Translations under genes and position numbers: made by a program
Assembly: GCF_000473265.1 (NCBI RefSeq)
Contig: NZ_KI421511.1
Span: 4,067,560 to 4,131,559, forward strand
Source of the DNA: Amycolatopsis thermoflava N1165
Lineage (GTDB): Bacteria > Actinomycetota > Actinomycetes > Mycobacteriales > Pseudonocardiaceae
Direction: 5' to 3'
Length of the DNA stretch: 64,000 nucleotides
Part shown: positions 5,928 through 22,157 of the stretch, piece by piece
Numbering within the stretch: position 1 is the stretch's first letter
Layout: every line of letters begins with the position of its first letter
Notes under the pieces: generated by a model
What the model saw: the letters and a program-made list of their open reading frames with translations, nothing else
Database searches by the model: none
Told to the model about the DNA's origin: nothing

Positions 5928-5953
5928 GTGAGAGAGTAGCTAGGATCAGTGAC

Positions 5954-6538: not shown

Positions 6539-6548
6539 TGTCGGGTTC

Positions 6549-6968: not shown

Positions 6969-6977
6969 TCCACCGCC

Positions 6978-7019
6978 GCGGGTTCCCGGCGCGGCCGGTG
7001 GTGTGCGCCGGGAACCCGC
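6978..7019. terminator. Bidirectional hairpin terminator
   Basis: A perfect 15-bp stem, GCGGGTTCCCGGCGC paired with GCGCCGGGAACCCGC, with a 12-base loop, lies between the convergent ends of the DDN gene and the xanthine dehydrogenase operon. There is no T-run, as is common in actinomycetes. Confidence 0.75.
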
Positions 7020-7043
7020 CGAGCCCGGCGCCCCACGAACGCC

Positions 7044-9308
7044 TCAGCCGACGATGTGCTCCGGGCGCACCGGGACCCGTGGCAGCTCCTTGCCCGTCGC
7101 GGCGCGGATGGCTGCCACGATCGCCGGGGTGGAGGAGATCGTCGGGGGCTCGCCGACTCCGCGCAGGCCGTAGGGGGCGTTCGGGTCGGCCCGTTCCAGC
7201 ACGTCGATATCCATCGGCGGCATGTCGAGCACCGTCGGGATCAGGTAGTCCGTGAACGACGGGTTGCGGATCTTCCCGTCCCGCGTCTGGATCTCCTCCA
7301 TCACCGCCAGCCCGAGCCCCTGCGCCGAACCGCCCTGGATCTGGCCCAGCACGGCCTGCGGGTTCAGCGCCCGCCCGACGTCCTGCGCGCAGTCCAGCGC
7401 GACCACCTTCACCAGCCCCAGCTCGGTGTCCACGTCCACCACCGCCCGGTGCGCGGCGAACCCGTACTGCACGTGCGCGTTCCCCGCGCCGGTCTCCGGG
7501 TCGAGCACCTCGGTCGGCCGGTGCCGCCACTCCACGGTCTCGTCGTAGACGTCGTCGCCGAGCGCGTCGGCCAGGTCCGCGACCACACCGTCCCGGGTGG
7601 ACACCAGCTTGCCGCCCACCAGTTCCAGGTCGGGCGATCCGATCCGCTTGGCCAGCGCCGTCCGCACCGCCACGCACGCGGCCCGCACCGCTCCCCCGGT
7701 CACGTACGTCTGCCGGGACGCCGACGTCGAACCGGCGTTGCCGATCGAGGTGTCCATCGGCAGGATCGTCACCTGCTCCACGCCCAGCTCGGTCCGCACG
7801 ATCTGCTGCAGCACCGTGACCAGGCCCTGCCCGACCTCGCACGCCGCGGTCTGCACCGTCGCGGCCGCCTCGCCGCCCACGACCCGCAGTTGCACGCGCG
7901 CGGTCGAGTAGTCGTCGAAGCCCTCGGAGAAGCAGATGTTCTTGATCCCGACGGCGTACCCGACGCCACGCACGACCCCCTCGCCGTGGGTGGTGTTCGA
8001 GACGCCGCCGGGCAACGTCCGCAGGTCCCGCTCGCCGGATGGCGCGGGCGGCAGCGGTTTCGCGGCCACCCGTCGCAGCAGCTCGGCGACCGGCGCGGCC
8101 GAGTCCACGACCTGCCCGGTCGGCATGCGGGAGCCCTCGCTCATCGCGTTGCGGACCCGCACCTCGACCGGGTCCAGCCCGCACGCCTGCGCGAGCTTGT
8201 CCATTTGGGACTCGTACGCGAAGGCCGCCTGCACCGCACCGAAGCCGCGCATCGCCCCGCAGGGCGGGTTGTTCGTGTACGCGCCCCAGCAGTCGACCGC
8301 GACGTTGTCCACGTCGTACGGCCCCACGCCGAGGGTCGCGGCGTTGGCGACGACCGCGCCGGTGGACGAGGCGTACGCGCCGCCGTCGAGGAACAGCCGC
8401 GCCTTGACGTAGACGAGCTTCCCGTCCCGGTCGGCGCCGTGCTCGTAGTACATCTTCGCGGGGTGCCGGTGCACGTGGCCGTAGAACGATTCCTCGCGGT
8501 TGTAGACCATCTTCACCGGCTTGCCGGTGCGCAGCGCGAGCAGGCACGCGTGGATCTGGATGGACAGGTCCTCGCGCCCGCCGAACGCGCCGCCGACCCC
8601 GCCGAGCGTCAGCCGCACCTTGTCCTCGGGCAACCCGAGTGCGGCGACGATCTGCCGCTGGTCGACGTGCAGCCACTGCGTCGCGACGTACAGGTCGACG
8701 CCGCCGTCCTCGGCCGGGACCGCGAGCCCGGACTCCGGGCCGAGGAACGCCTGGTCCTGCATGCCCACCTCGTACACGCCCGACACCACCACGTCGGCGG
8801 TCGCGGCCGGGTCACCGCGGCGGATCGGCACGTGCCGCACGACGTTGCCGTTCGGGTGGACCTTCGGCGCGTCGCCGCGCACCGCGCGCTCGGCGTCGGT
8901 GACCGGTTCCAGCACCTCGTAGTTCACCCGGATTCGTTTCATCGCCCGGCGTGCGGTCTCCGGGTGGTCGGCCGCCACGAGCGCGACCGGTTCGCCCTGG
9001 TAGCGCACCACGTCGACGGCCAGCACCGGCTGGTCCGGGTGCTCCAGGCCGTACCGGTTCACGCCCGGCACGTCCTCGTGGGTGAGCACGGCCTCCACGC
9101 CCGGCACCTTCAGCGCCTCGGTGATGTCGATGCCGGTGATGCGGGCGGACGGGTGCGGGCTGCGCAGGGTCACGCCCCACACCATGTCCTCGTGCCACAG
9201 GTCCGAGGAGTACGCGAACTCGCCGCGCACCTTCACGATCCCGTCCGGGCGGCGCGGGCTGGCGCCGATCCCGCCGGCTGTGCCGGTGCGCTCGACTGAC
9301 GTGGTCAT
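7044..9308 (-). CDS. xdhA: Xanthine dehydrogenase, molybdopterin-binding subunit
   Basis: The 754-residue large subunit carries the molybdopterin cytosine dinucleotide domains that hydroxylate hypoxanthine and xanthine to urate. Visible are the N-terminal RPDGIVKVRGEFAYSSDL, the glycine-rich GGVGGAFGGREDL near residue 230, AMRGFGAVQ, and the C-terminal GLRGVGEPPT that includes the expected active-site Glu. ATG 9308 overlaps the stop of the upstream deaminase (ATGA). It is the last gene of a four-gene operon after FAD, 2Fe-2S and deaminase genes. Gene names follow the E. coli convention. The cofactor-insertion chaperone (XdhC/PucA type) is absent here. Confidence 0.94.
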   Translation of the reverse strand: MTTSVERTGTAGGIGASPRRPDGIVKVRGEFAYSSDLWHEDMVWGVTLRSPHPSARITGIDITEALKVPGVEAVLTHEDVPGVNRYGLEHPDQPVLAVDVVRYQGEPVALVAADHPETARRAMKRIRVNYEVLEPVTDAERAVRGDAPKVHPNGNVVRHVPIRRGDPAATADVVVSGVYEVGMQDQAFLGPESGLAVPAEDGGVDLYVATQWLHVDQRQIVAALGLPEDKVRLTLGGVGGAFGGREDLSIQIHACLLALRTGKPVKMVYNREESFYGHVHRHPAKMYYEHGADRDGKLVYVKARLFLDGGAYASSTGAVVANAATLGVGPYDVDNVAVDCWGAYTNNPPCGAMRGFGAVQAAFAYESQMDKLAQACGLDPVEVRVRNAMSEGSRMPTGQVVDSAAPVAELLRRVAAKPLPPAPSGERDLRTLPGGVSNTTHGEGVVRGVGYAVGIKNICFSEGFDDYSTARVQLRVVGGEAAATVQTAACEVGQGLVTVLQQIVRTELGVEQVTILPMDTSIGNAGSTSASRQTYVTGGAVRAACVAVRTALAKRIGSPDLELVGGKLVSTRDGVVADLADALGDDVYDETVEWRHRPTEVLDPETGAGNAHVQYGFAAHRAVVDVDTELGLVKVVALDCAQDVGRALNPQAVLGQIQGGSAQGLGLAVMEEIQTRDGKIRNPSFTDYLIPTVLDMPPMDIDVLERADPNAPYGLRGVGEPPTISSTPAIVAAIRAATGKELPRVPVRPEHIVG

Positions 9309-10639
9309 CGCAACCTCCTGCTCGCGGCCGCCAGCTCGCCCGCGATCGCGGTCTCGTCGTCCGTGCGCAGCTCGCCGTCGGCGACCACCGTCCGGCCGCT
9401 GACGAGCAGCAGCTTCAGCGGCGGGGTCGCACCGAGCACGAGCGCGGCCAGCGGGTCGTCGATCCCCGCGTAGCGCAGGCCGTTCAGGTTCCACACGGCG
9501 AGGTCGGCGAGCTTGCCGGGCTCGATGGAGCCGAGTTCGCCGTCCCGGCCGAGGCAGCGTGCGCCGCCCATGGTGCCCATCCACAGCGCCTCGCGGACGG
9601 CCAGCGCGGTCGGGCCGCCGCGTTGCCGCGCCTGCAGCAACGCCTGGTGCAGCTCCTCGCCGAGCCCGCCGGACTCGTTGGACGCGGCGCCGTCGACCCC
9701 GAGGCCGACCGGGGCGCCGGCGTCGAGCAGGTCCCGCACCGGGGCGATCCCGGTGCCGAGGCGGCCGTTCGACGTCGGGCAGTGCGCCGAACCGGTGCGG
9801 GTGGCGCCCATGCGGCGGATCGCCGGGCCATCGAGGTGGACGGTGTGTGCGAGCCACACGTCGTCGCCGAGCCAGCCCAGCTTGTCGGCGTACTCGGCGG
9901 GTGTGCAGCCGTTCTCGGCGACGCACTGCTCTTCCTCGTCCAGCGTCTCGGCGAGGTGGGTGTGCAGCCGGACTCCCGTGCGCCGCGCCAGGTCCGCGGC
10001 CTGGCGCATCAGATCCTCGCTGACCGAGAACGGCGAGCACGGCCCGGCGGCGATCCGGATGCGGGCGTCGCGCGCCGGGTCGTGGTGGGCGTCGATCGCG
10101 GCTTCGGTGCCCAGCAACGCGGCTTCGGTGGTTTCCACCAGGTTGTCCGGCGGCAGGCCGCCGTCGGACTCGCCGCGGTCCATCGACCCGCGCACGAGGT
10201 GCGCGCGCACGCCGATCCGGTTCGTCGCCGCGACGAGCGCCTCGATCTGGTCGCCGCTGTCCTGTGGGAAGACGTAGTGGTGGTCGGCGACCGTGGTGCA
10301 GCCGGTCATCGCCAGGTGTGCCATCCCGGCGGTCGCGGCGGCATGCGTGATGCCGGCGTCCAGCCGCTTCCAGACCGGGTACAGGTGGACCAGCCACTCG
10401 AACAACGTGGCGTCGGCCGCGAGCCCGCGGGTGGCCCACTGGTACAGGTGGTGGTGGGTGTTGACCAGGCCGGGGGTGACCAGGCAGCCTGCGGCGTCGA
10501 TTCGCTCCCCCGGCACGGCCGCCGGGCCGGGGCCGACGGCGGTGATCGTGTCGCCGTCGATGACGACGTGCCCGCTGCGGTGCTCGGCGCCGTCGGCGTC
10601 GACCGTCGCGATGGCGGCGTTCTCCAGGATCAGGGTCAT
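9305..10639 (-). CDS. 8-Oxoguanine deaminase (amidohydrolase)
   Basis: A 444-residue amidohydrolase with GLVNTHHHLYQ (metal His), a HTHLAE strand, SAHCPTSNGRLG and LGVDGAASNESGG, the motif set that distinguishes 8-oxoguanine deaminases from guanine deaminase and from chlorohydrolases such as AtzA. It would convert 8-oxoguanine to urate, or act on guanine or isocytosine. ATG 10639 overlaps the 2Fe-2S subunit stop by four bases and its own stop overlaps xdhA, so it is locked into the xanthine dehydrogenase operon. That position suggests a feed into urate independent of xanthine. Confidence 0.85.
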   Translation of the reverse strand: MTLILENAAIATVDADGAEHRSGHVVIDGDTITAVGPGPAAVPGERIDAAGCLVTPGLVNTHHHLYQWATRGLAADATLFEWLVHLYPVWKRLDAGITHAAATAGMAHLAMTGCTTVADHHYVFPQDSGDQIEALVAATNRIGVRAHLVRGSMDRGESDGGLPPDNLVETTEAALLGTEAAIDAHHDPARDARIRIAAGPCSPFSVSEDLMRQAADLARRTGVRLHTHLAETLDEEEQCVAENGCTPAEYADKLGWLGDDVWLAHTVHLDGPAIRRMGATRTGSAHCPTSNGRLGTGIAPVRDLLDAGAPVGLGVDGAASNESGGLGEELHQALLQARQRGGPTALAVREALWMGTMGGARCLGRDGELGSIEPGKLADLAVWNLNGLRYAGIDDPLAALVLGATPPLKLLLVSGRTVVADGELRTDDETAIAGELAAASRRLR

Positions 10640-11091
10640 TTCGCCGCCGCCCGCACCGCGTCGAGGATCTTCTCGTAGCCCGTGCAGCGGCAGAGGTTCC
10701 CGGCGAGGGCCTCGCGGATCTCCTCGTCGCTCGGGTTCGGCACCCGGTTCAGCAGGTCGTGCGCGGCGACCACCAGGCCGGGCGTGCAGAAGCCGCACTG
10801 CACGGCGCCCGCGTCCACAAAGGACTGCTGCACCGGATCGAGCCGGTCGCCGTCGGCCAGTCCTTCGACGGTGCGCACCTCACGTCCCTCGGCCTGCCCC
10901 GCGGCGACCAGGCACGCGCAGACCGGCGTGCCGTCCAGGTAGACCGTGCAGGAACCGCATTCGCCCTGCTCGCAGGCGTTCTTCGAGCCGGGCAGGCCGA
11001 GCCGCTCGCGCAGCAGGTAGAGCAGGCTCTCGCCCTCCCACACGTCGTCGGCCTGCCGGGCTTCACCGTTGACCGTCACGTTCACGCGCAT
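10636..11091 (-). CDS. xdhC: Xanthine dehydrogenase, 2Fe-2S subunit
   Basis: A 151-residue electron-transfer subunit with two 2Fe-2S clusters. Plant-type ferredoxin ligands are seen as KNACEQGECGSCTVYLDG with a following Cys in PVCACLV. The second, helical cluster uses GAVQCGFCTPG and GNLCRCTGYEKI. Length is typical. Its ATG lies within the last codons of the FAD subunit gene (10-bp overlap), and its stop overlaps the deaminase start. It passes electrons from the molybdenum centre to FAD. Confidence 0.95.
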   Translation of the reverse strand: MRVNVTVNGEARQADDVWEGESLLYLLRERLGLPGSKNACEQGECGSCTVYLDGTPVCACLVAAGQAEGREVRTVEGLADGDRLDPVQQSFVDAGAVQCGFCTPGLVVAAHDLLNRVPNPSDEEIREALAGNLCRCTGYEKILDAVRAAAK

Positions 11092-11951
11092 GTCCGCTCA
11101 CTTCCCAGGTAGTCCTGCCAGGCCCAGCCGAGTGTCCGGCGGGCGAGCACCGCCAGCGCGTGCCTGCGGTACTCCGCGGTGCCGCGCACGTCGTCGATCG
11201 GCGCGGCCGCCGACGCGACCAGCTCGCCGAAGCGCCGCTTGACCGAGTCGCGCAGCGGCGCGGGCGCGTCCCACGGCAGCTCGGCGGCCAGGAACTCCTC
11301 GGCTTCGGCGGCTCGGCGGGGGGTGGGCGCCGCGGAACCGATCGCCGCACCCGCGCGCCGGTGCTCCGGATCGAGCGCGACGGCGAACGAGCACACCGCG
11401 ATGACCATGGCGTTGCGCGTGCCGACCTTCGCGAACTGCTGGGGCGCGGTCGCGACCGGCAGGTGCACGGCCACGATCAGCTCGTCCGGCGCGAGGCTGT
11501 GCTTCTTGACGCCGACGTAGAAGTCGTCCGCATCGATCATCCGGGTGCCTCGCGTGGAGGCGACCTCGACCCGCGCGCCCGTCGCCAGCAGCACCGGGTG
11601 CGTGTCCCCCGCGGGCGAGGCAGCGCCGAGGTTGCCGCCGACCGTGCCGCGGTTGCGGATCTGCGGCGAGCCGACCGTGCGCGAAGCCATCGCCAGCGCG
11701 GGCAGCTGTTCACCCAGCTCAGTGATGAGCCGCGTGTAGGAAACGCCCGCGCCGAGCCGGACCACGCCGTCCTCGACGGTCCACCCGGCGAGTTCCGCGA
11801 CGCGGGTCAGGTCGAGCAGCGCGTCCGGACGGCGGTGGTCGAAGTTCAGCTCGACCATGACATCCGTGCCGCCCGCCAGTGGCACGGCGTCCGGGTGCTC
11901 GGCCTTCGCGGCGAGCGCCTCGGCCAGGTTCGCCGGTCGCAGGAATTCCAT
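11082..11951 (-). CDS. xdhB: Xanthine dehydrogenase, FAD-binding subunit
   Basis: A 289-residue subunit of the CoxM/XdhB type. It starts MEFLRPANLAEALA, has PLAGGTDVMVEL (FAD pyrophosphate loop) near residue 30, and SPQIRNRGTVGGNLGAASPAGD near residue 105, the second FAD-contact loop. The CO-dehydrogenase flavoprotein C-terminal domain follows from about residue 175. ATG 11951 is chosen because the family starts at this point; upstream in-frame codons lack homology. It is the first gene of the operon, divergent from pucR across 100 bp, a layout that suggests PucR control. Confidence 0.94.
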   Translation of the reverse strand: MEFLRPANLAEALAAKAEHPDAVPLAGGTDVMVELNFDHRRPDALLDLTRVAELAGWTVEDGVVRLGAGVSYTRLITELGEQLPALAMASRTVGSPQIRNRGTVGGNLGAASPAGDTHPVLLATGARVEVASTRGTRMIDADDFYVGVKKHSLAPDELIVAVHLPVATAPQQFAKVGTRNAMVIAVCSFAVALDPEHRRAGAAIGSAAPTPRRAAEAEEFLAAELPWDAPAPLRDSVKRRFGELVASAAAPIDDVRGTAEYRRHALAVLARRTLGWAWQDYLGSERTCA

Positions 11952-12051
11952 GGAAAGAAGTAGACGCCCGGGGCACGGGCACCGGCAACGGCGGCTCAGT
12001 ACGAACCGACAGCAGCGTACGGGCCCGCGTTTGTGCTTTCCTACAACCCTG

Positions 12052-13503
12052 ATGACGACCGTGAAAACTCTGCTGGAGATCCCGGAACTGCGCCTGCGGT
12101 TGCGCACCGGCGCCGGGCAGCTCGGCCGCGCGGTCAGCCGGATCTACGTCACCGAGCTGCCCGACCCGAGCCGGTACGTCTCGGCGGGCGAGGTCGTCCT
12201 CAGCGGGCTGCTGTGGTGGCGCGAGCCGGGCGACGCCGGGCCGTTCGTCGCCGCGCTGGCCCGCGCCGGGGTCGCCGCGCTGGCCGCGTCCGGCGCGGAC
12301 ACCGGCGGGATCCCGCCGGACGTCGTGCAGGCGTGCGCGCAGCACCGCATCCCGCTGCTGGAGGTGCCCGCCGACCTGTCGTTCGCGGTGATCACCGAGC
12401 GCGTGGTGCTGGAGCTGGCCGCGGCGCGGGGCCGGGAACCGAGCGGCGCCCGCAAACGCTTGCTGGCCGCGGCGACCGAGGACATCTCGCTGCCCGCGTT
12501 GCTGCGGCAGGGTGCGATCGAGCTGGGCGCGCCGTGCTGGGTGCTGTCCGGGACGGGGCGGGTCGTCGCGGGCACGGCCGTGCCGCCCGAGGATCTCGTC
12601 GCGCATTTCGTGCCGGGCCGGGAGGTCACGGTCCACGACGGGTACGCGCTGATGCCGGTCGGCGGGAGCTTCGCGGTGCCGTGGCTGCTGGCGGTCGCGC
12701 AGCCGGAGCCGGGTGAGCTGGCCGCGGAGCTGGCCGAGCTGGTGCGGCTGGCGCGGGCGCGGGCCGACCAGGTGCGGCGCATGTCGGGCCGGGCGGCCGA
12801 GCCGTTGCTCCAAGCCCTGGCCGACGGCGGGCCGGTCGGGGACGCCTTCGCCGCGTCCGGACTGCCCGCGGACACGGAGCTCCGCGTGCTGCTCGCGCGG
12901 GCGCCGGACGAGAGCCCGGCACTGGCGGCGGAGGTGCTGGCCGAACTGCTCGCCGAGGCGCGGCCGCTGGTCGGCGTCGTCGGCGAGGACGCCTACGCGC
13001 TGGTCGCCGGACCGGGCAACTGGATGCGCGCGGCGGCCGAGGCGCTGACGCGGCTGGACCGGCTGATGTCGTTGTCGCGGTTCCACCTGGGTTCCGGCGG
13101 CCCGGCGTCGGTGGACGGCCTGCACGGGGCGACGCAGGAGGCGCGGCACGCGGTCGAACTGGCGGCCCGCCGCGGCGGGCGGATCGAGCTGGTGGCGGGC
13201 GAGGACATCGCCGTGCACCAGTTGCTGGCTGCCGGCGCGCCGGACGAGCTGCGCCGGTCGGTGCGGGAGCGCGTGCTCGGGCCGTTGCTCGCCTACGACG
13301 CGGCGCAGGGCACGGATCTGGTGCACACCGTGCGGGTGTACCTGGAGTGCTCCAGCTCGCCGACCGCGGCGGCGCGGGCGCTGCACGTCCACGTCAACAC
13401 GCTGCGGTACCGCATCGCGCGGGCGTCGGAGCTGCTCGGCGTGGACCTCAACGACTTCGTCACCCAGGTGGACGTGTATCTCGCGCTTCTGGTTACCGTC
13501 TAA
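12052..13503 (+). CDS. PucR-family transcriptional regulator
   Basis: The 483-residue protein has an N-terminal PucR domain (residues 1-120, YVTELPDPSRYVSAGEVVLS), a central region, and a C-terminal HTH_30 domain with AARALHVHVNTLRYRIARAS near residue 440. PucR regulators activate purine catabolic genes in Bacillus and actinomycetes. It is divergent from the xanthine dehydrogenase operon with a 100-bp gap. ATG 12052 begins MTTVKTLLEIPELR, matching the family start. No clear dyad was found in the intergenic gap. Effector unknown; allantoin or urate derivatives are plausible. Confidence 0.9.
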   Translation: MTTVKTLLEIPELRLRLRTGAGQLGRAVSRIYVTELPDPSRYVSAGEVVLSGLLWWREPGDAGPFVAALARAGVAALAASGADTGGIPPDVVQACAQHRIPLLEVPADLSFAVITERVVLELAAARGREPSGARKRLLAAATEDISLPALLRQGAIELGAPCWVLSGTGRVVAGTAVPPEDLVAHFVPGREVTVHDGYALMPVGGSFAVPWLLAVAQPEPGELAAELAELVRLARARADQVRRMSGRAAEPLLQALADGGPVGDAFAASGLPADTELRVLLARAPDESPALAAEVLAELLAEARPLVGVVGEDAYALVAGPGNWMRAAAEALTRLDRLMSLSRFHLGSGGPASVDGLHGATQEARHAVELAARRGGRIELVAGEDIAVHQLLAAGAPDELRRSVRERVLGPLLAYDAAQGTDLVHTVRVYLECSSSPTAAARALHVHVNTLRYRIARASELLGVDLNDFVTQVDVYLALLVTV

Positions 13504-13522
13504 GCGGGTTAACTGGTAACGT
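13493..13522 (+). promoter_or_regulatory. Putative promoter of a leaderless transcript
   Basis: TTACCG (13493-13498) and TAACGT (13517-13522) are spaced 18 bp apart. The ATG of the hydrolase begins at 13530, seven bases after the -10, where transcription would be expected to start. GTTACC (13492-13497) and GGTAAC (13515-13520) also form an inverted repeat across the same stretch. Confidence 0.4.
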
Positions 13523-13529
13523 CCGGTGC

Positions 13530-14348
13530 ATGGAGGAATTCGAGACACCGGGCGGGACCGTGCGCTGGGCTTCTTCGGGTTCCGGCCCGCCGGTCGTGTT
13601 GCTGCACGGCACGCCGTTCTCGTCGTCCGTGTGGCGGGACATCGCGTCCGCGTTGAGCGAGCGGCACCAGGTGTTCGTCTGGGACATGCTGGGTTACGGG
13701 CGGTCCGAGAAGCGGGACGGCCAGGACGTGTCGCTGGGGACGCAGGCGGAGATCTTCGCGTCGCTGCTGGAGCACTGGGGGCTGGAGTCCCCGTCGGTCG
13801 TGGCGCACGACTTCGGCGGCGTCGTCTCGCTGCGGGCGCACCTGCTCCATGGCGCACGTTACGACCGGCTCGCCCTGGTCGACGTCGTGGCGATCGCGCC
13901 GTGGGGGACGCCGTTCTTCCACCTGGTGCGGGACAACCCGTGGGTCTTCGAGCAGCTGCCGTCACACCTGCACGAAGCGATCGTGCGCACCCAGACCGCG
14001 ACCGCGTCCGCTGCCGGTCTGCGCGACGGCGTGCTGGACGAGTTGGTCGCGCCGTGGCTCGGCGCCGCGGGGCAGGCCGCGTACTACCGGCAGATCGCGC
14101 AGGCGGACCAGCGGTTCACCGACGAGATCGAGCCGCTGCTGGGCTCGCTGGACCTGCCGGTGCTGGTCGGCTGGGGCGAGGCCGACGAGTGGATCCCGGT
14201 CGAGCAGGGCAAGGAACTGGCGTCGCGCATCCCGGGCGCGCGGCTGCGCCTGTTCCCCGGCACCGGGCACCTGGTGCAGGAGGACGCGCCGGCCGCGCTC
14301 ACCGCCACCCTGCTGGAATTCCTCGGTCAGCCGCGGAAGGTCGCGTAG
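13530..14348 (+). CDS. Alpha/beta hydrolase with Asp nucleophile
   Basis: A 272-residue alpha/beta-hydrolase with LLHGTPF (oxyanion) at about residue 24, SVVAHDFGGVVS placing Asp94 at the nucleophile elbow, GEADEWIP and GTGHLVQED (catalytic His) near the end. An Asp nucleophile is typical of epoxide hydrolases and dehalogenases. It starts 27 bp after pucR with no ribosome-binding site of note and a -10-like TAACGT seven bases upstream, so it may be leaderless. Its last 22 bp overlap the convergent CitE-like gene. Substrate unknown; proximity to pucR may be incidental. Confidence 0.78.
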   Translation: MEEFETPGGTVRWASSGSGPPVVLLHGTPFSSSVWRDIASALSERHQVFVWDMLGYGRSEKRDGQDVSLGTQAEIFASLLEHWGLESPSVVAHDFGGVVSLRAHLLHGARYDRLALVDVVAIAPWGTPFFHLVRDNPWVFEQLPSHLHEAIVRTQTATASAAGLRDGVLDELVAPWLGAAGQAAYYRQIAQADQRFTDEIEPLLGSLDLPVLVGWGEADEWIPVEQGKELASRIPGARLRLFPGTGHLVQEDAPAALTATLLEFLGQPRKVA

Positions 14349-15532
14349 CTCTCCAAACGCGCGCGGGTGAGGCCGGTCAAGTTCTCGGCCTCGGCGGTGT
14401 CGATGGCGCCGCAATCCAAGCCGCGCAACAGGAAACCGGACAACGCCCGTGCCGTGGCCGGCTCGTCGAGCACGCCGCTGTCCACTTGTGCGGCGTAGTC
14501 CCGCAACCTCGCCGCCGCCGCGGGCAGGCCCTCGCGGAAGAAGGCGTACGTCGCGGCGAAGCGGGTGGGCAACTGATGCGGGTGCAGGTCCCACCCCTGG
14601 TAGAAGCCGCGCTCCAGGGAGCGTCGCACCAGCCGCAGATGCTCGCGCCAGGCCGGCACCAGCGCGTCGCCCACCGGAAGTTTGTTCGTCGACCCGTCAG
14701 ACAGGCGCACACCCGTCCCCGCGGCGCTGACCTGCATGAACGCCTTCGCGAAGTCCGCCGCCGGGTGGTCCATGCTCTGGTGCTCCGCGGCGATGCCCAG
14801 GCCGGCGCTGTAGTCGTAGGTGCCGTAGTGCAGCCCACTGCACCGGCCCTCGGCGGCCTGCACGATCCGGGCCACCGCGACGCGGCCTTCACCGTCCACG
14901 ATGGACTGCGCGGTTTCGATCTGCACCTCGAACCGCAGCGCGCCGTCCGGGAGACCGTAGGCCGTCTCCAGGTGGCCGAGCACCTCGGCGGCGGCGCCGA
15001 CCTGCTCGACCGCCGTCACCTTCGGCAACGTCACCACGAACCCGGCAGGCAGCTCGCCGTGCTCCAGCAGCCCGGACAGGAACAGGTCGAGCGTCCGGAT
15101 GCCGCGACGGCGGGTCGCCCGTTCGAAGCTCTTGAACCGGATCCCGCAGAACGGCGTGACCGGGTTCGCCGCCAGCACACGGCCCGCCGTGACCGCGGCC
15201 TCGTCCTCGGCGTCGTCGCCGGGGCGGCCGTAGCCGTCCTCGAAGTCGATGCGCAGGTCCTCGATCGGTTCGGTGACCAGCTTGCGCCGCACCCGCTCGG
15301 CCACGGCCGGGTCGAGCCCGAGCGCGTCGCCGCACGCGTCGAACACGGCCCGCGCCTGCTCGCCCCAGCGCGCGACCAGATCGGCGGAGTACCGGTGCGC
15401 GGGCACGTAGACCGTGTGCACCGGTTGCCGCCCGGACGGCTCACCGGGGTAGCGCGCCTCGACCCGTGCGTCCACTTCGGACAGCCGGGCGTCGATGCCC
15501 GCGTACACGTCCCCGGTGAGCCGTCCGGCCAC
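14327..15532 (-). CDS. CitE/HpcH-like aldolase-lyase family protein beside malate synthase
   Basis: The 401-residue protein belongs to the HpcH/HpaI aldolase / citrate lyase beta fold. It has DLRIDFEDGYG near residue 78, FEVQIETAQSIVDGEG (metal-binding Glu) near residue 190 and GTYDYSAGLGIA (metal Asp region) near residue 220. It begins with GTG at 15532, two bases after the aceB stop, so it is translated with malate synthase. The family regularly accompanies malate synthase A in actinomycetes, but no reaction has been firmly assigned as far as I know. A malyl-CoA-, citramalyl- or beta-hydroxy-acid-type C-C lyase is possible. Confidence 0.75.
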   Translation of the reverse strand: MAGRLTGDVYAGIDARLSEVDARVEARYPGEPSGRQPVHTVYVPAHRYSADLVARWGEQARAVFDACGDALGLDPAVAERVRRKLVTEPIEDLRIDFEDGYGRPGDDAEDEAAVTAGRVLAANPVTPFCGIRFKSFERATRRRGIRTLDLFLSGLLEHGELPAGFVVTLPKVTAVEQVGAAAEVLGHLETAYGLPDGALRFEVQIETAQSIVDGEGRVAVARIVQAAEGRCSGLHYGTYDYSAGLGIAAEHQSMDHPAADFAKAFMQVSAAGTGVRLSDGSTNKLPVGDALVPAWREHLRLVRRSLERGFYQGWDLHPHQLPTRFAATYAFFREGLPAAAARLRDYAAQVDSGVLDEPATARALSGFLLRGLDCGAIDTAEAENLTGLTRARLESYATFRG

Positions 15533-15534
15533 GG

Positions 15535-17109
15535 TTACTTGATCCGCTCGTAGGCGGGCAGGGTCAGGAAGTCGACGAACTCGTCGGCGAGCGCGACCTC
15601 CTCGAAGATCTCGACCGCCGGGGCGAGCAGGTCGGCCGGGACCTGGCCGTCGAGCTCCTTGCGCACGTCGTCCAGCACCGACTTGACCAGGTCGCGGGTG
15701 ACCTTCTGGCCGTTGTCGAGCTGGGTGCCGTTCTGCACCCACTGCCAGATCTGCGAGCGCGAGATCTCCGCGGTCGCGGCGTCCTCCATCAGGTTGTGGA
15801 TGCCCGCCGCGCCGTTGCCGCCCAGCCACGACGCGATGTAGCGGACGCCGACGTCGACCGCGCCACGCAGGCCGGCCTCGGTCGCGCCGCCCTCGGTGCT
15901 CGCGACGTCGAGGAGCTGGTCGGCGGTCACCGACACGTCCTCACGCAGCCGGTCGAGCTGGTTCGGCTTGTCGCCGAGGACCTTGTCGAACTCCTCCTTG
16001 CACAGCTCGACCATGCCCGGGTGCGCGACCCACGAGCCGTCGAAGCCGTCATTGGCCTCGCGGGCCTTGTCGGCGTGGACCTTCTTCGAGGCGTTCTCGT
16101 TGACCTCGGGGTCCTTGCTCGGGATGAACGCGGCCATGCCGCCGATCGCGAACGCGCCGCGCTTGTGGCAGGTGCGCACCAGCAGCTCGGTGTAGGCGCG
16201 CATGAACGGCGCGGTCATGGTGACGCTGTTGCGGTCCGGCAGCACGAACTTCTCGCCCGCGTCGCGGAAGTACTTGATGACGCTGAACAGGTAGTCCCAG
16301 CGGCCCGCGTTGAGGCCGGAGGCGTGCTCGCGCAGCTCGTAGAGGATCTCCTCCATCTCGAACGCGGCCGGGATGGTCTCGATCAGGACGGTGGCGCGGA
16401 CGGTGCCGTGCTCGATGCCCAGGGTCTTCTCCGCGTGGGTGAAGACGTCGTTCCACAGCCGGGCCTCGAGGTGGCTCTCCATCTTCGGCAGGTAGAAGTA
16501 CGGGCCCTTGCCGCGCTCGAGCAGCTCCTTCGCGTTGTGGAAGAAGTAGAGCCCGAAGTCGACCAGCGCGCCGACACCCTTGCGGCCGCCGAAGGTCAGG
16601 TTGTGCTCGTCGAGGTGCCAGCCGCGCGGGCGGACCACGATGGTCGCCAGCTCGATGTCCTTGCGCAGCTCGTAGTGCTTGCCGTTGGAGTCGAGCTCGA
16701 TGGTGCCGCGGATCGCGTCGTACAGGTTGACCTGGCCGCCGACGACGTTGTGCCAGTGCGGGGTGTTGGCGTCCTCGAAGTCGGCCAGCCACACCTTGGC
16801 GCCCGAATTGAGGGCGTTGATCGTCATCTTGCGGTCGGTCGGGCCGGTGATCTCCACGCGGCGGTCGCGCAGGGCGGGCGGCGCCTCGGCCACTCGCCAG
16901 TCGCCCTCGCGGATCTCCTTGGTCTCGGGGAGGAAGTCCAGGCGCCCGGTGCGCTTGGCCTCCTCGCGCCGCTTCGCGCGGGCGGCGAGCAGCTCGTCAC
17001 GGCGAGCCGCGAAGTTCTCGTGCAGCCCGGCCAGGAAGTCCAGCGCTTCCCGGGTCAGGATCTCGTCGCCTCGCTCGACGGAGCCACCGAGCACCTGGAC
17101 GTCAGCCAT
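15535..17109 (-). CDS. aceB: Malate synthase A
   Basis: The 524-residue protein condenses glyoxylate with acetyl-CoA to malate. Motifs include INALNSGAKVWLADFEDANT near residue 100, RPRGWHLDEHN, GPYFYLPKMESH and MTAPFMRAYTELLVRTCHKRG with GGMAAFIPSKDP. Length matches the A form (about 530). ATG 17109 is preferred over upstream TTG because GGGAG lies before it. No isocitrate lyase is nearby. In this setting the glyoxylate comes from allantoin breakdown, closing purine carbon into the TCA cycle. It is divergent from an IclR regulator with a repeated element in the gap. Confidence 0.95.
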   Translation of the reverse strand: MADVQVLGGSVERGDEILTREALDFLAGLHENFAARRDELLAARAKRREEAKRTGRLDFLPETKEIREGDWRVAEAPPALRDRRVEITGPTDRKMTINALNSGAKVWLADFEDANTPHWHNVVGGQVNLYDAIRGTIELDSNGKHYELRKDIELATIVVRPRGWHLDEHNLTFGGRKGVGALVDFGLYFFHNAKELLERGKGPYFYLPKMESHLEARLWNDVFTHAEKTLGIEHGTVRATVLIETIPAAFEMEEILYELREHASGLNAGRWDYLFSVIKYFRDAGEKFVLPDRNSVTMTAPFMRAYTELLVRTCHKRGAFAIGGMAAFIPSKDPEVNENASKKVHADKAREANDGFDGSWVAHPGMVELCKEEFDKVLGDKPNQLDRLREDVSVTADQLLDVASTEGGATEAGLRGAVDVGVRYIASWLGGNGAAGIHNLMEDAATAEISRSQIWQWVQNGTQLDNGQKVTRDLVKSVLDDVRKELDGQVPADLLAPAVEIFEEVALADEFVDFLTLPAYERIK

Positions 17110-17142
17110 GCGGAACACTCCCAAGAAGACTTGCGGTTCGGT

Positions 17143-17178
17143 TTTTTACATCCCGGACTATAGTTTCTACATAGCGGA
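17143..17178. promoter_or_regulatory. Paired 21-bp-phased operator between aceB and iclR
   Basis: TTTTTACATCCCGGA (17143-17157) and TTTCTACATAGCGGA (17164-17178) are direct copies offset by exactly 21 bp, two helical turns. TATAGT (17159-17164) lies between them and is the likely -10 of the iclR gene. Each copy is also a weak TTC-N9-GAA type dyad, which suits IclR-family binding. The layout suggests glyoxylate-relieved repression of aceB and autoregulation. Confidence 0.6.
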
Positions 17179-17199
17179 AGCTCAATGTGAGGAGTCGCG

Positions 17200-17967
17200 G
17201 TGGCCGAGGAGAAGGCAGGACGAGACGGCGGGGTCCAGTCGCTGCGTCGCGCGTTCGAGCTGCTCGAGCGGCTGGCTGACACCGGTGGCGAGGCCAGCCT
17301 GTCCGAGCTGGCGGCCACGTCCGGCCTGCCGATGCCGACGATCCACCGCCTGATCCGCACGCTCGTGCAGCTCGGCTACGTGAGGCAGAACACGAACCGG
17401 AAGTACGCGCTGGGGGCGCGGCTGATCCGGCTCGGCGAGAACGCGAGCATGCAGTTCGGCGCGTGGGCGCGTCCGCTGCTGGCGGAACTGGTGGAGGCGA
17501 CCGGCGAGACGGCGAACCTGGCGGTGCTGGAGCGCGACGAGGTGGTGTACGTGTCGCAGGTGCCGTCGAAGCACTCGATGCGGATGTTCACCGAGGTCGG
17601 GCGGCGGGTGCTGCCCCACGGGACGGGCGTCGGGAAGGCCATCCTGTCGCAGCTGCCCGCCGAGGACGTCCGCGCGTTGCTGGACCGCACGGGCATGCCC
17701 GCGTACACCGACCACACCTTCACGGACCCCGACGAGCTGCTGGCGCACCTCGCCCAGGTGGCGGCGCAGGGCTACGCCGTCGACGAGAGCGAGCAGGAAT
17801 TGGGAGTGCGGTGCATCGCGGTCCCGCTCACCGGGACACCGGCTCCCGCGGCGGTCTCGGTGTCCGGCCCCTCCGGCCGGCTGACACGCGAGGCGGTCTC
17901 GCGGATCGCCCCGCTGGTCCAGGCGACCGCGGCGACGTTGTCGACGCACCTCGCGGAGAGCGCCTGA
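17200..17967 (+). CDS. IclR-family regulator (AllR/IclR-like)
   Basis: A 255-residue regulator. Residues 10-75 are the winged HTH (SLRRAFELLERLAD, then LSELAATSGLPMPTIHRLIRTL). The C-terminal IclR effector domain runs from about residue 85, with YVSQVPSKHSMR, GRRVLPHGTGVGKAILSQLP and the late ELGVRCIAVPL strand carrying the Cys found in small-molecule-binding members. GTG 17200 follows GTGAGGAG. Being divergent from aceB and near allantoin genes, it is most likely a glyoxylate/allantoate-responsive repressor of the AllR type. Its TGA abuts the stop of the convergent lipoprotein gene. Confidence 0.88.
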   Translation: MAEEKAGRDGGVQSLRRAFELLERLADTGGEASLSELAATSGLPMPTIHRLIRTLVQLGYVRQNTNRKYALGARLIRLGENASMQFGAWARPLLAELVEATGETANLAVLERDEVVYVSQVPSKHSMRMFTEVGRRVLPHGTGVGKAILSQLPAEDVRALLDRTGMPAYTDHTFTDPDELLAHLAQVAAQGYAVDESEQELGVRCIAVPLTGTPAPAAVSVSGPSGRLTREAVSRIAPLVQATAATLSTHLAESA

Positions 17968-18291
17968 TCAGCCGAACCAGGGGTTTTCGAGGGGCTGGTC
18001 GTCGACCTGGATGTGGTAGTCGGCGCCGCCGTTCGCGACTGCGGTGACCGTCGCGGTGACCCCGTAGCGCTTGCCCCCGACGGTGAGCACGCAGCGAGCG
18101 GTCTTACCCGGCTGCGCGGTCAGCGGATCCGGGCAATCGACCGCCTCGGGCCGGTGCCCGACCATGCTGAGGACCGTGTCGGAAATCCCCTGCTCGACGG
18201 TCTCCTGACTGAGCGAACGGGTCGTCCCGACGGTGACTGTGCAGCCGGCGAGCAGCAGGGCGGAGCAGACGACGAGCGCGGCGCGGAACAT
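17968..18291 (-). CDS. DUF4333-like lipoprotein
   Basis: A 107-residue lipoprotein: MFRAALVVCSALLLAGCTV gives a signal peptide with lipobox LAGC, lipidated at Cys17. The mature part contains SQETVEQGISDTVLSMVGHRP, the DCPDPL and ARCVLTVGGKRYGVTVT-like pattern (here with TATVTAV) of DUF4333 domains common in mycobacteria and relatives. The two mature Cys residues may form a disulfide. Function unknown. Its TGA is directly adjacent to the iclR stop, both encoded in the palindrome TGATCA (17965-17970). Confidence 0.8.
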   Translation of the reverse strand: MFRAALVVCSALLLAGCTVTVGTTRSLSQETVEQGISDTVLSMVGHRPEAVDCPDPLTAQPGKTARCVLTVGGKRYGVTATVTAVANGGADYHIQVDDQPLENPWFG

Positions 18292-18314
18292 TGCGAGAAC
18301 CCCCAGGAAGTGAA

Positions 18315-18345
18315 AGAGCGCGCCGCCTCCCCAGCGACGCGCCCT
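18315..18345 (-). terminator. Terminator of the type VII substrate-like operon
   Basis: Read on the minus strand, AGGGCGCGTCGC pairs with GCGGCGCGCTCT (12 bp with two G-U pairs, 7-base loop) and is followed by TTTCACTT. It lies 49 bp after the last gene of the 18394-22107 operon, before the lipoprotein gene. Confidence 0.75.
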
Positions 18346-18393
18346 CACATCCTGCACTGCTCTGACCTGGCTTGCACAGCGTTCCCGATCTTC

Positions 18394-19176
18394 TCACCCG
18401 ATCAGGGGGATGCGGTCGAGGATGTCGCAGCGGAGGTCGAGCGCCGCGACCAGTTCGGCGGGATCGCGGTGGTCGCGGATCCGGTCGAGGGCGTCGACGC
18501 GGTCGGCGAACAGCGTGAACCCGCGGAACCGGCGCGCATCGGTGAGCAGGAACTCCGCCAGCGCCGGAGTGATCACGTGGGCGAGGAACCGCTCGTCCGG
18601 CCCGTTGACGTCGAACCGGTCGTCGAAGGCCGGGTGGCCGGTGCGGAAGTCGCCCTGCCCGACGGCCGCGTTGATCTTGCTGACCATTCCCACCGTCTGC
18701 CGCACGTACACCGGCGGGCACGGCGCGGGCGTGCGCACCCAGATGCAGAGTTCGGTGGTGATCTGGTGCATGTAGAAGATTTCGAGCGTCGCGGCGACGA
18801 ACGGGCGGCCGCGGTGGGTGCCGGTGATGATGTCGTGAGCGCTTCGCGCGTGCGGGGGCCGGATGAAGTGCTGTTCCAGCGGCCCCGGCGCCTTGGCCTG
18901 GAAGCCGGACCGCCATACCGGCTGGTTCGGCCGCCAGAACTGGCTCTGCTCCGGGCTCCAGAACTGCTCGTACTGCCGGTTGTAGGCCTCGGCCAACGAA
19001 TCGTCGCGCTCGACGTACGTCCACCCCCGCCGCGGCAACTCCTCCCGCAACTTGGCGAGCGTGACCGCCGCGGCGGCGCCCTGCCTGCGGTTGAACCACA
19101 CGATCAGCCAGGTGATCAGCCCCATGAAGAGCACCGACCCGCCGACCGCGATCGCGACGACCGCTCCCGCGCTCAC
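18394..19176 (-). CDS. Membrane-anchored protein of unknown function
   Basis: A 260-residue protein with one N-terminal transmembrane helix (residues about 5-27, AVGGSVLFMGLITWLIVWF) and a cytoplasmic or external soluble domain. A segment around residues 45-110 is rich in aromatic residues (QFWSPEQSQFWRP). The region IITGTHRGRPFVAATLEIFY resembles an immunoglobulin-binding or DUF3137-like beta strand pattern but I cannot assign a family. It is the last gene of a coupled operon with YbaB-like and type VII secretion substrate-like genes, overlapping the YbaB-like gene by four bases. A role connected with the secreted partners is inferred from context only. Confidence 0.6.
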   Translation of the reverse strand: MSAGAVVAIAVGGSVLFMGLITWLIVWFNRRQGAAAAVTLAKLREELPRRGWTYVERDDSLAEAYNRQYEQFWSPEQSQFWRPNQPVWRSGFQAKAPGPLEQHFIRPPHARSAHDIITGTHRGRPFVAATLEIFYMHQITTELCIWVRTPAPCPPVYVRQTVGMVSKINAAVGQGDFRTGHPAFDDRFDVNGPDERFLAHVITPALAEFLLTDARRFRGFTLFADRVDALDRIRDHRDPAELVAALDLRCDILDRIPLIG

Positions 19177-19772
19177 CGGCTCGAACCGTCCGCGAACAGG
19201 TCGGTCTCCTCGAACGGCTCGTCGTCCTGCGCGGGCGGCCGCCGGTGCGCCGCGGGCGCACGAGGCGGCACCGGCGTCGGGGCGGGAGGCGGTGGCGGCG
19301 GAACAGCCGGGCGCTCCTCGAAGAGCTGGTCGGCGGTCTCCAGCGGTTCCTCTTCGCGAGGTGGGACGAACACGGGAGCCGGACCGGGGTGTTTCGGCCG
19401 CTGGTCGCCGAACGTGTTCTCGTCCGCGTCGAGCACGCGGTCCAGCAGCTCGGTGTCGCCGAGGCCCCGGCGCACGACCTCGGCCTGCTGCCTGGCCGCG
19501 GCGGCCCGCGCGACCGCGAGGGTGTGCATCACCGCCGCGGACAGCGCGGCCGGCGGCAGGTCGCGGACGCGTTCGCCGAAGGTCACCGCCTTGACCTCGC
19601 CGCCCGCGCCCGCGACGACCCGGACGGCGCCGTCCGGCGAGACCGCCTCCGCGGTCACGTCCTTCAGTTCCCCGGCCATCTGCTCGTAGGCCTGGGCGCG
19701 GCGGCGGTTGTCGGCCGCCGCGGTGTCGATGGCCTCGATCCGGCGCAGCAACTGCTGGGCGAACTCGCTCAC
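19173..19772 (-). CDS. YbaB/EbfC-like protein with proline-rich tail
   Basis: Residues 1-110 form a YbaB/EbfC-type helix-strand-helix domain: RRIEAIDTAAADNRRRAQAY, then VSPDGAVRVVAGAGGEVKAV and an alanine-rich second helix. Residues 120-199 are low-complexity, acidic and proline-rich (PPPPPPAPTPVPP). Classical YbaB is about 100 residues, so this is an extended form typical of type VII secretion-associated operons in actinobacteria. It overlaps neighbours by four bases on both sides. It may bind DNA or act as a helical-hairpin partner; the sequence does not decide. Confidence 0.72.
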   Translation of the reverse strand: MSEFAQQLLRRIEAIDTAAADNRRRAQAYEQMAGELKDVTAEAVSPDGAVRVVAGAGGEVKAVTFGERVRDLPPAALSAAVMHTLAVARAAAARQQAEVVRRGLGDTELLDRVLDADENTFGDQRPKHPGPAPVFVPPREEEPLETADQLFEERPAVPPPPPPAPTPVPPRAPAAHRRPPAQDDEPFEETDLFADGSSR

Positions 19773-20260
19773 CGCGTCTCCTCCGGGCGGATGGTCGACA
19801 GGAATTCGTGGAAGTCGCCGACGACCTGGTCGAACTGCTCGGCGAGCGAGCTCAGCACGATCTGCAGCACGGCGTACCGGCTCGGCTCACGGGTGTCGCG
19901 GATGCCGAGGAACACCTGGAGCTGCACCACCTGCTCGGGCTTGCCGTTCAGCATCAGGGACAGGCGCACGGCCTGTGTCAGGCCGGGGCCGCCCGCGGAC
20001 CCGGCCTCCTTGCGCCTGCCGAGCTGGGCGTCCGGCGCGCCGCGGCGCAGCCGGTCCAGCGCCGCGTCGGCGAGTTCGGTCAGCGACACGTCGCGGGGGT
20101 GCAGCTCGCCGCTGATCGTGATGTTCGGGGTGAACCCCTTGACCGCGGGCGGGCGCAGGGCCACGAACGCGGCCTCGTCGGCCTTGACCTCGGCCGGTCG
20201 CACCGACTGCCAGCCCTCGGGCAGCGAGAACTGGATCGGCACCGGAATGGTGGCTACCAC
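19769..20260 (-). CDS. LpqN/DUF1795-like protein
   Basis: A 163-residue protein without signal peptide. It starts IPVPIQFSLPEGWQSV and contains EAAFVALRPPAVKGFTPNIT, then a helix ELADAALDRL and a strand QLQVFLGI; this arrangement resembles the LpqN/PsbP-like fold of mycobacterial proteins. It ends in FHEFLSTIRPEE. The start is GTG 20260 after GGAGAC. It is coupled to the YbaB-like gene by a four-base overlap and lies 18 bp after the large substrate-like gene. It may be a chaperone or partner for that protein; this is inference from gene order. Confidence 0.6.
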   Translation of the reverse strand: MVATIPVPIQFSLPEGWQSVRPAEVKADEAAFVALRPPAVKGFTPNITISGELHPRDVSLTELADAALDRLRRGAPDAQLGRRKEAGSAGGPGLTQAVRLSLMLNGKPEQVVQLQVFLGIRDTREPSRYAVLQIVLSSLAEQFDQVVGDFHEFLSTIRPEETR

Positions 20261-20278
20261 GATGTCTCCGTCTCCGTC

Positions 20279-21589
20279 CTAGAACAGGAAGTCCGCGACC
20301 GCGTCCGCGGCGTTGGCCAGCCCGTGCCCGACGTCCGTCGCGATGTCGGCAACGTCGTCGGCCACGTCCGTCACAGTGTCCACGACCTCCTGCGGGTCGA
20401 TCGCGATGTCGAACCCGACGTCCGCGCCGATGCCCAAGGTCAGGCCGAGCGACGCGCTCAGGTGGAACTTGCCGTCGTCGCCCATCCCGATCTGGCCGTC
20501 CGCGTGCGCACCGACCCCGGCCGAGAGCCCGCCGTGAACGCCCGCGCTGAGGCCAGCCCCCTCGGCGCTCGCCGCGACACCGGCCCGGACGCCGGCAGAG
20601 CCTCCCAGGCTGCCCCGGACACCGGTCAGGCTCGCGCTTCCCTCGGCCTCGGCCCGCACTCCAACGGAGGCTTCCGCGTGCCCGGAAGCGCCGGCGTGCT
20701 CCCCGAGCTTGACCTGTCCCTCTGCCGACCCCTTGGCCAGCCACGCCTCGGCGTTCGCCGCCGCGGTCACACCGAGGGCGTTGACGCTTCCGGACACGCC
20801 GGCGCTGGCGCCGAAGAGCGAGCCCTCGAGCTTCCCCGATCCCGACAGCGCACCGGCGCCGAAAGAGCCGTCCAGGCTCCCGCCCACCAGCTCCCCGCTC
20901 GCGGAGGCGCTGAAGGTCTCGTCCGAGAGGTCGAAGCCGAGCGCTTCGAGGGTCTCGTCGATCCGGTCGCTGAGCATCCCGTCGGACTGGGAGCCCCACT
21001 CGAACCCCTTCTGCCTCCCGGGTTCGTGGCTCTTCTCGCCGAGCTCCTTGCGGTACCCGCCGTCGCCGTCGGGCTCGAAACCGAAGGCCGCCGCGACGGA
21101 ATCGCCGATCTGGCTCACGTGGGCGCGGGCGAAGTCGAGCACCGACTGGGCTTCCCTCGCCAGGGCCTCGCCGGGGTCCTGGAACGGGGCGAGAGCCTGA
21201 CCGACGGCCTGAGCCTGCGCGGCCTGGGCGTCGTACTGGGTGGCTGCCGCGCGGGAGGCGGCCTGCGCCTCGGTGTACATCTCGATGGCGCGCTGCGCTT
21301 CGGACTGCGCCCAGGTCAGCGCGTCGCCGAAGTCCGCGAGCGCCTGACCGCCCTGGCCGAGGAGCGCCGCGGTCTCGATCCACTTGGGCGGCTCCGCGCC
21401 GAACGCCTCCCGGAAGGCATCGGCGGCCGCACCGCTCCACTGCGCGGGGGCGATCCCGGCGAGCCCGTCGCCGGTGGTGCCGATCTGCTGGATGCCGGCG
21501 ACCAGGTCGCGCAGGTCGCCTGCGATCAGCTCCGGCTCGCCCGGGATCAGCTCCCTGGGGTTGGTCGTCTCACCGAGTCCGGCGGCCAT
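20279..21589 (-). CDS. Large type VII secretion substrate-like protein with Gly/Ala-rich repeats
   Basis: The 436-residue protein opens with LIPGEPELIAGDLRDLVAGI and a WSGAAADAF (WxG) turn near residue 50, matching the putative type VII secretion signal/WXG-like helical region (residues 10-165). Residues about 215-400 are a Gly/Ala/Ser-rich array with alternating polar and hydrophobic residues (SGELVGGSLDGSFGAGAL, AGVHGGLSAGVGAHADG), likely repeated beta strands. It ends in an acidic helix-like DVADDVADIATDVG tract. No recognisable toxin domain is present at the C-terminus. The start overlaps the stop of the preceding gene by one base (TGATG). Confidence 0.7.
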   Translation of the reverse strand: MAAGLGETTNPRELIPGEPELIAGDLRDLVAGIQQIGTTGDGLAGIAPAQWSGAAADAFREAFGAEPPKWIETAALLGQGGQALADFGDALTWAQSEAQRAIEMYTEAQAASRAAATQYDAQAAQAQAVGQALAPFQDPGEALAREAQSVLDFARAHVSQIGDSVAAAFGFEPDGDGGYRKELGEKSHEPGRQKGFEWGSQSDGMLSDRIDETLEALGFDLSDETFSASASGELVGGSLDGSFGAGALSGSGKLEGSLFGASAGVSGSVNALGVTAAANAEAWLAKGSAEGQVKLGEHAGASGHAEASVGVRAEAEGSASLTGVRGSLGGSAGVRAGVAASAEGAGLSAGVHGGLSAGVGAHADGQIGMGDDGKFHLSASLGLTLGIGADVGFDIAIDPQEVVDTVTDVADDVADIATDVGHGLANAADAVADFLF

Positions 21590-22107
21590 CAGTAGGTCCG
21601 CTCGTCGGCGTCGAACTCGGCGGGGTTCAGCCGGCTGGAGATGCTGCCGCCGTCCGGGAACAGCTCGCGCGCGCGTTCCGGGCTCATGATCCCGGCCTGC
21701 TCGACCGGACCACTGGCGGCGCCCTGGAGACCGGCGGCGCTCGCGGGCGCGCTGCCCGTCACGCGAGCACCGGCGAAGCCGCCGCCGACCATGCCGCCGA
21801 GCGGGTCACCGGTCTCGCCGATCAGCTCGCCGATGCCGGCCAGGGACCGGCCGGCGTCGTCGTCCGACTCCAGGTACACGCCTGCCGCGACACGCAGGCT
21901 CTCGCCGTGCTCCTCGGCCTTGGCGCGCAGCTTCTTCAGCTGCGCCTCCATCTCGCGGAGGAAATCGGTCCAGCCCGCCTGCACGCCGGCGTGCCCGTAG
22001 TCGCCGGCCGGTGCGCGGAAGGCCACGCCGGCGACGCCGGACACGACGTCCCCGATGGTGCTCGCCGTCTGCCGCAGTTCGTCCGGGACCGCGCCGAAGC
22101 CGGTCAT
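21589..22107 (-). CDS. EspC/WXG100-like secreted helical-hairpin protein
   Basis: A 172-residue protein whose first ~95 residues form a helix-turn-helix hairpin: VPDELRQTASTIGDVVSGV, a GW turn near residue 45, then FLREMEAQLKKLRAKAEEHG. VYLESDDD supplies a YxxxD-type secretion motif after the second helix. These are the features of ESX-secreted EspC/WXG100-like proteins. The C-terminal 70 residues are Gly/Ala-rich. It is the first gene of a five-gene operon. No ESX core components (EccA-E, MycP) are in the window, so secretion must depend on a system encoded elsewhere. Confidence 0.72.
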   Translation of the reverse strand: MTGFGAVPDELRQTASTIGDVVSGVAGVAFRAPAGDYGHAGVQAGWTDFLREMEAQLKKLRAKAEEHGESLRVAAGVYLESDDDAGRSLAGIGELIGETGDPLGGMVGGGFAGARVTGSAPASAAGLQGAASGPVEQAGIMSPERARELFPDGGSISSRLNPAEFDADERTY

Positions 22108-22128: not shown

Positions 22129-22157
22129 AAGGCGCGCCGCTCCCCGCGGCGCGCCTT
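22129..22157 (-). terminator. Intrinsic terminator after ftsY
   Basis: On the minus strand AAGGCGCGCCGC pairs perfectly with GCGGCGCGCCTT around a 5-base loop, followed by TTTTCCTT. It lies 68 bp after the ftsY stop and 21 bp before the start of the type VII substrate-like operon, so it could also act on that operon's leader. Confidence 0.85.

Follow-up and report, generated by a model that had tools for sequence, protein, structure and literature searches.

A probable orphan type VII secretion substrate operon of Amycolatopsis thermoflava and a PsbP/MOG1-fold protein linked to its beta-body

The window analyzed here is a stretch of 64,000 nucleotides (C1:4067560-4131559) of the 8.69-Mb genome of Amycolatopsis thermoflava N1165. 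It contains six genes, A to F, all on the minus strand at 17968-22107, behind ftsY. They probably constitute an orphan type VII secretion (ESX) substrate module, in which gene C encodes a chaperone dedicated to the beta-stranded C-terminal part (here, the body) of the protein encoded by gene B. This is based on what is observed directly: the genes present, their synteny, the purifying selection on A to E, how specifically C is linked to the body, and the body, C and a YbaB-like gene standing together inside ESX loci. An earlier sequence-only reading took the genes for an orphan operon that encodes a type VII substrate and its own partners. The signal families, the synteny and the linkage between the body and C support it.

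Linkage of gene C to the beta-body

Profiles of C and of the body, each made from 36 sequences, were run against the same 120 genomes of the family. C is seen in 53 genomes, the body in 48, and both in 47; the absences are lower-bound statements because the profile searches scored just the best first-look candidates per genome. C lies directly downstream in 62 of 70 body loci, and the body lies upstream at 62 of 81 places with C. A search of these genomes with PF21725, the secretion-signal family of B, yields 113 places at E 1e-10, with at least one protein counted as two pieces. The body was counted if it lies up to 900 nt behind the PF21725 signal, and C if it lies within 2.5 kb. C is just downstream in 48 of the 51 PF21725 places with the body and in 0 of the 62 without it. 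Fisher values for this comparison are not readable as probabilities, because the 120 genomes are related. The contrast in the 120 genomes is complete: C tracks the beta-body of B and not its secretion signal. In a sample of 296 genomes of the class, with 12 candidates scored in each, the pairing is seen again in all three further genomes where C was detected. It also persists when the N-terminal signal changes: this is PF21725 in orphan loci and of WXG100 type in several others.

Eighty loci with C were fetched, and ESX core genes are present in 15 of them; the 120-genome sample supplied 13 of these, and the search with B the other two (genomes G002 and G010). Here the order is body-C-YbaB, beside EccC, EccD, EccB, EccE or MycP. 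YbaB is directly 3' of C in 14 of these 15 loci and nearby on the other strand in the remaining one (L125); by count, it is detected in 45 of all 80. A local body model places the body upstream of C in 13 of the 15, and a genome search adds a 14th (G082:C6, E 8e-6). Three of the 15 were scanned for the family of the body-bearing protein: those of L057 and L055 match WXG100-type families, and that of L058 matches no Pfam family. Among genomes with names, a set partly overlapping the sampled genomes, the same arrangement is seen in 16 of 17 loci, Haloechinothrix alba being the exception. The profile of C matches the ESX-locus version at 100% (E 2.7e-39). The body, C and D thus have relatives that sit together inside ESX loci, so an ESX setting is not alien to the module.

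The ESX locus of the host itself (L060 4422-14353; G000:C1, about 3.574-3.584 Mb) contains EccC, EccD, EccB, a MycP-like gene, small WXG-like genes and a YbaB-like gene, and neither the body nor C is found there. This indicates that YbaB genes can accompany ESX generally, while C goes with the body. The body is also found beside an FtsK-type ATPase in L063 (1976-8700), L064 (1838-8770) and L134 (917-8341). The ATPase of L134 bears an FHA domain, and the gene next to the body there matches LpqN at 2e-13. The genes behind the bodies of L063, L064, L134 and L136 are all LpqN/DcrB-like, and the family of the genes behind bodies in these distant loci matches the solved structure 3lyd (E 2.3e-30). 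In L136 (6817-9229), the body is followed by two tandem partner genes.

B was searched in 18 relatives of the same genus, and 20 stretches were fetched and compared. The operon adjoins ftsY in the same order in eight of the 18 and in one genome of another genus. All of A to F are detectable in these nine ftsY-linked loci, some just as pieces, and A is upstream of B in every one. The sequence-only reading had made its case depend on A to E occurring together elsewhere, and the synteny search finds that they do. A to E are under purifying selection: the ratio of nonsynonymous to synonymous substitution rates (dN/dS) is 0.10-0.20 in one pair and 0.11-0.32 in a second. Within B, the values for the two pairs are 0.18 and 0.20 in the signal and 0.17 and 0.16 in the body.

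Several loci depart from this arrangement. The operon is in tandem copies at ftsY in L037 (G012, 6942-13964) and L040 (G018, 4022-12985), and in the latter the second C is broken across two frames. As deposited, frames are interrupted in several operon genes of G014 (L038 7010-10838) and in B of G010 (L039 7848-9156), by either decay or an assembly error; ftsY aligns whole. A shorter trio, composed of a hairpin gene, a B-like gene and a C-like gene with no YbaB, is seen elsewhere in this genome and in others (L031, L042-L046). In L076 (5357-5842) and L083 (5380-5862), C lacks an upstream body and is divergent from two small lipoprotein-like genes. In L085 (5941-7397), two E-like genes lie on the opposite strand near a C without the body. 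These last three loci were read by eye.

Components of the operon

The coordinates are listed in Table 1. Genes A to E are confirmed at the positions claimed by the sequence-only reading, on one strand; they overlap by 1-4 nt at A/B, C/D and D/E, and B and C are 18 nt apart. Gene F, observed 3' of E in all nine ftsY-linked loci, is probably the sixth gene of the set. The inverted repeat between ftsY and A looks like an ftsY terminator that would separate ftsY from the operon, although a consensus terminator scan did not report it. The absence of ESX genes near the operon is also borne out: of the two EccB genes detected in the genome, one (C1:3577477) is about 0.5 Mb and the other (C1:5120665) about 1 Mb distant. 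No evident classical signal peptide is seen in A, B, C or D on inspection of the sequences. Very long plus-strand frames at 13526-19689 (e.g., 18013-19689) are antisense to operon genes and their neighbors; such frames are expected in DNA of about 70% G+C and are not counted as genes.

Table 1. Features of the operon and its upstream boundary (positions in the window).
Feature	Position	Strand	Length	Description
Gene A	21589-22107	-	172 aa	Helical hairpin of the EspC type, carrying Y78xxxD82; predicted to be exported together with B
Gene B	20279-21589	-	436 aa	WxG protein; predicted type VII substrate
B secretion-signal domain, residues 4-167	21089-21580	-		PPE-like helical bundle in the model
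B W51xG53 motif	21431-21439	-		W51 and G53 invariant across 59 aligned sequences
B beta-body, residues 224-397	20399-20920	-		Gly/Ala/Ser-rich; seven strands, each 22-23 residues long, alternating with a two-residue period
Gene C	19769-20260	-	163 aa	PsbP/MOG1-fold protein (LpqN/DcrB/Eag superfamily); predicted body-specific chaperone
Gene D	19173-19772	-	199 aa	YbaB-like domain plus an extended, Pro-rich tail at the C terminus; predicted to act as an accessory chaperone
Gene E	18394-19176	-	260 aa	N-terminal hydrophobic segment, then Arg-Arg; putative membrane protein
Gene F	17968-18291	-	107 aa	DUF4333 protein in which LLAGC resembles a lipobox; probably belongs to the set as its sixth gene
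Putative ftsY terminator	22131-22155	-		Perfect 10-bp inverted repeat, then TTTT; read by eye

A matches EspC (PF10824) exactly at the cut-off (23.5 bits versus 23.5), and its YxxxD, Y78LESD82, is at the end of the hairpin; both agree with the EspC-like hairpin described before. Because 38% of shuffles of A also contain YxxxD/E, the significance of the motif rests on its recurrence. In the fetched loci, 57 of 60 PF21725-like matches have an upstream open reading frame of 70-260 aa. YxxxD/E is present in 52 of the 57, at residues 77-85 in 33 of them by hand count. The paralogous locus of this genome, L031, is among the five without the motif.

The signal domain of B matches T7SS_signal (PF21725) at 5.5e-32 (112 bits versus a cut-off of 27). 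All 59 aligned B sequences, including that of the window, match this family, and many homologues carry the name "putative T7SS-secreted protein". The nearest relative of B, named as from A. thermoflava, is 98% identical. PF18879, the EspA/EspE family, is not matched by B at E 1 and is not among the 12 families listed for the 59 sequences at E 0.1. Pfam scans of B and of the aligned sequences show no PAAR match and no toxin domain. Residue alternation along the body scores 1.77 against a shuffle standard deviation of 0.147 and is reached by 0 of 2000 shuffles. The strands of the body are those of an AlphaFold model, for which structure searches give no clear fold match. The 59 sequences are conserved through the last strand and show no variable C-terminal toxin domain. 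The earlier description of B as a WxG protein with a beta-like body and no toxin domain is upheld by the motif, PF21725, the alternation and the Pfam scans. Its "repeat-rich" body is confirmed by the alternation; a 50-residue repeat is only marginal, exceeding the 95% level of the shuffles but not the 99% level.

C matches both DcrB/DUF1795 (PF08786; 15.0 bits versus 27.2) and LpqN (PF10738; 12.4 bits versus 22.4) below the cut-offs. Among 49 aligned C sequences, 12 match DcrB at E up to 1, with 6.7e-4 the best. The AlphaFold model of C (predicted local distance difference test score, 91.3) has the PsbP/MOG1 fold, and its nearest structures are 3lyd, MTC28, LpqN, SciW and EagT6. No EspG chain is among the structure matches listed for C. 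No signal peptide or lipobox is seen in C by eye. The LpqN-like label given to C by the sequence-only reading can be sharpened: C is modelled with the PsbP/MOG1 fold, lacks an evident signal peptide and is highly specific to the body in its occurrence.

D matches YbaB (PF02575) at 37.6 bits versus a cut-off of 25.5 (2.6e-9), which together with its tail fits the extended YbaB-like protein described before. E, read by eye, appears to have one membrane helix with its domain in the cytosol, in line with the membrane protein assigned earlier. It matches PF11335 below the cut-off only, and several of its homologues are named DUF3137. F matches PF14230 (DUF4333) at 2.2e-15. A further likeness of F, to NCBIfam NF052486 (anti-apoptotic protein; 5e-20), is far below the cut-off of that family.

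Comparison with known systems

The operon resembles espA-espC-espD and espE-espF-espH of mycobacterial ESX-1 in the combination of an EspC-like hairpin, a larger partner and a YbaB-like protein, the last likeness being based on the PF02575 match. Similar to the A-F operon, espACD stands away from the ESX locus. The YbaB-like gene is third in the mycobacterial sets and fourth here. Unlike their counterparts, B belongs to PF21725 instead of PF18879 and has a beta-body, and the operon additionally encodes C with its PsbP/MOG1 fold, the membrane protein E and, in F, a DUF4333 lipoprotein. EspH is reported to interact with EspE, and YbaB-like proteins are proposed to be dedicated chaperones (PMC6107294). 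Other actinobacterial PF21725 proteins, toxins included, share the signal domain and usually have a hairpin-sized gene upstream. B differs from them in its conserved beta-body, and among PF21725 places C occurs with the body only.

The Eag (DUF1795) chaperones of type VI effectors are similar to C in that they have the PsbP/MOG1 fold, are small, are encoded beside the substrate gene and have no evident signal peptide. Eag proteins are described as binding transmembrane segments of effectors (PMC7773334). C is different in its type VII context, in its DcrB score below the cut-off and in its predicted client region, which is a beta-meander and not prePAAR with helices. LpqN belongs to the lipoproteins, and the title given to MTC28 names a secreted antigen, whereas C is without an evident signal peptide and is encoded in a substrate operon. 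EspG, EsaE and TscG are presented as dedicated type VII substrate chaperones (PMC11217815). C is predicted to be alike in this role but is modelled with the PsbP/MOG1 fold.

Zhang et al. 2012 suggest PsbP/MOG1-like proteins as adaptors of the type VI secretion system (T6SS) (PMC3482391), and a 2025 paper treats the PsbP/MOG1-like domain as diagnostic of T6SS (PMC12419801). The words DUF1795, DcrB, LpqN, PsbP and YbaB are absent from the main text of a 2024 survey of type VII variants. Among the literature matches listed, none links a PsbP/MOG1/DUF1795 protein to type VII secretion, with most subscription papers and preprints lying outside the search.

Interpretation and alternatives

In the most probable reading, A and B form a helical-hairpin pair, with YxxxD on A and WxG on B, which would be exported by an ESX machine encoded elsewhere. 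ESX machinery genes are present in the host genome, and the export of A and B is predicted to depend on EccC. The C-terminal part of B would be a conserved amphipathic beta-meander and not an interchangeable toxin tip. C could be a cytosolic chaperone or adaptor dedicated to this body. The linkage and, by analogy, the fold suggest that C binds or acts on the body. It may keep the body in a state in which it neither aggregates nor inserts until export, as Eag does for transmembrane segments of type VI effectors. D, a YbaB-like protein, might help in the manner of EspH, EspD and EspL, E and F may be envelope-facing parts of the orphan version, and the exported body would assemble in or on the membrane or wall.

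Some facts weigh against this interpretation. Secreted or lipidated proteins resemble C at least as well as the Eag chaperones do, and the Pfam cut-offs do not accept C as either DcrB/DUF1795 or LpqN. Nineteen places with C have no body upstream, and eight body matches have no C. Several roles also remain for B, such as membrane action or a fiber.

One such role is that of an antibacterial membrane-active effector, in which the beta-body is toxic and C (or E) is the immunity protein. Strands 4-7 have one hydrophobic or small face and one polar face, and the body has weak, statistically poor similarities to outer-membrane beta-barrels. The T6SS immunity proteins TplEi and Tsi3 share the fold of C, and the solitary and extra C genes resemble spare immunity genes. 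This reading is nevertheless unlikely. Purifying selection acts on the body, which stays conserved as far as the final strand, in contrast to the tips of polymorphic toxins. Without an evident signal peptide, C could not reach an incoming toxin in the envelope. Besides, C is mostly better conserved than B in the ftsY-linked loci, the opposite of what is expected of an immunity protein.

Somewhat less probable again is that B is a structural surface protein, whose silk-like Ala/Gly sheets stack into a fiber or cell-wall layer after export, as in the adhesive structure imagined by the sequence-only reading. The composition of residues 171-395 (Gly 22%, Ala 15%, Ser 12%), the long alternating strands and the lack of any enzyme or toxin domain in the Pfam scan of B are consistent with it, and the title of one reference reports filaments formed by M. 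tuberculosis EspC. On the other hand, no anchoring motif was noticed in B, and no fiber protein stands out among the best 50 Foldseek matches listed for the body. Fiber proteins often expand repeats, whereas close homologues of B vary little in length.

It is very improbable that C and D are general ESX adaptors for many substrates, with the link to the body a by-product of operon inheritance. Relatives of both occur in ESX loci, and the YbaB-like gene of L060 stands without the body or C. The absence of C from all 62 PF21725 places without the body, and the pairing that outlasts a change of N-terminal signal, argue against it. This reading is more plausible for D than for C. A cytosolic operon with no secretion role, to which the distant ESX genes and the lack of evident signal peptides in A to D could point, is hardly credible given PF21725, the EspC-like partner with YxxxD, the WxG motif and the recurrence of body-C-YbaB inside ESX loci.

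A broader proposal can be considered, though tentatively. PsbP/MOG1 chaperones might also serve type VII secretion, with one clade dedicated to substrates whose payload is an amphipathic seven-strand beta-meander and keeping this soluble until export. The clade would travel with its payload through full ESX loci, type VII-like loci with FHA-ATPases and orphan operons, and what type VII secretion delivers would be a beta-sheet able to assemble in the membrane or envelope.

Little is known about the type VII substrates of actinomycetes other than mycobacteria. The linkage of C with the body gives context to 3lyd, an uncharacterized solved structure. It also suggests that the label "diagnostic of T6SS" is too narrow for the PsbP/MOG1-like domain. 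A partner tied to one payload domain, ignoring the secretion signal, offers a concrete and testable handle on how type VII systems treat aggregation-prone cargo.

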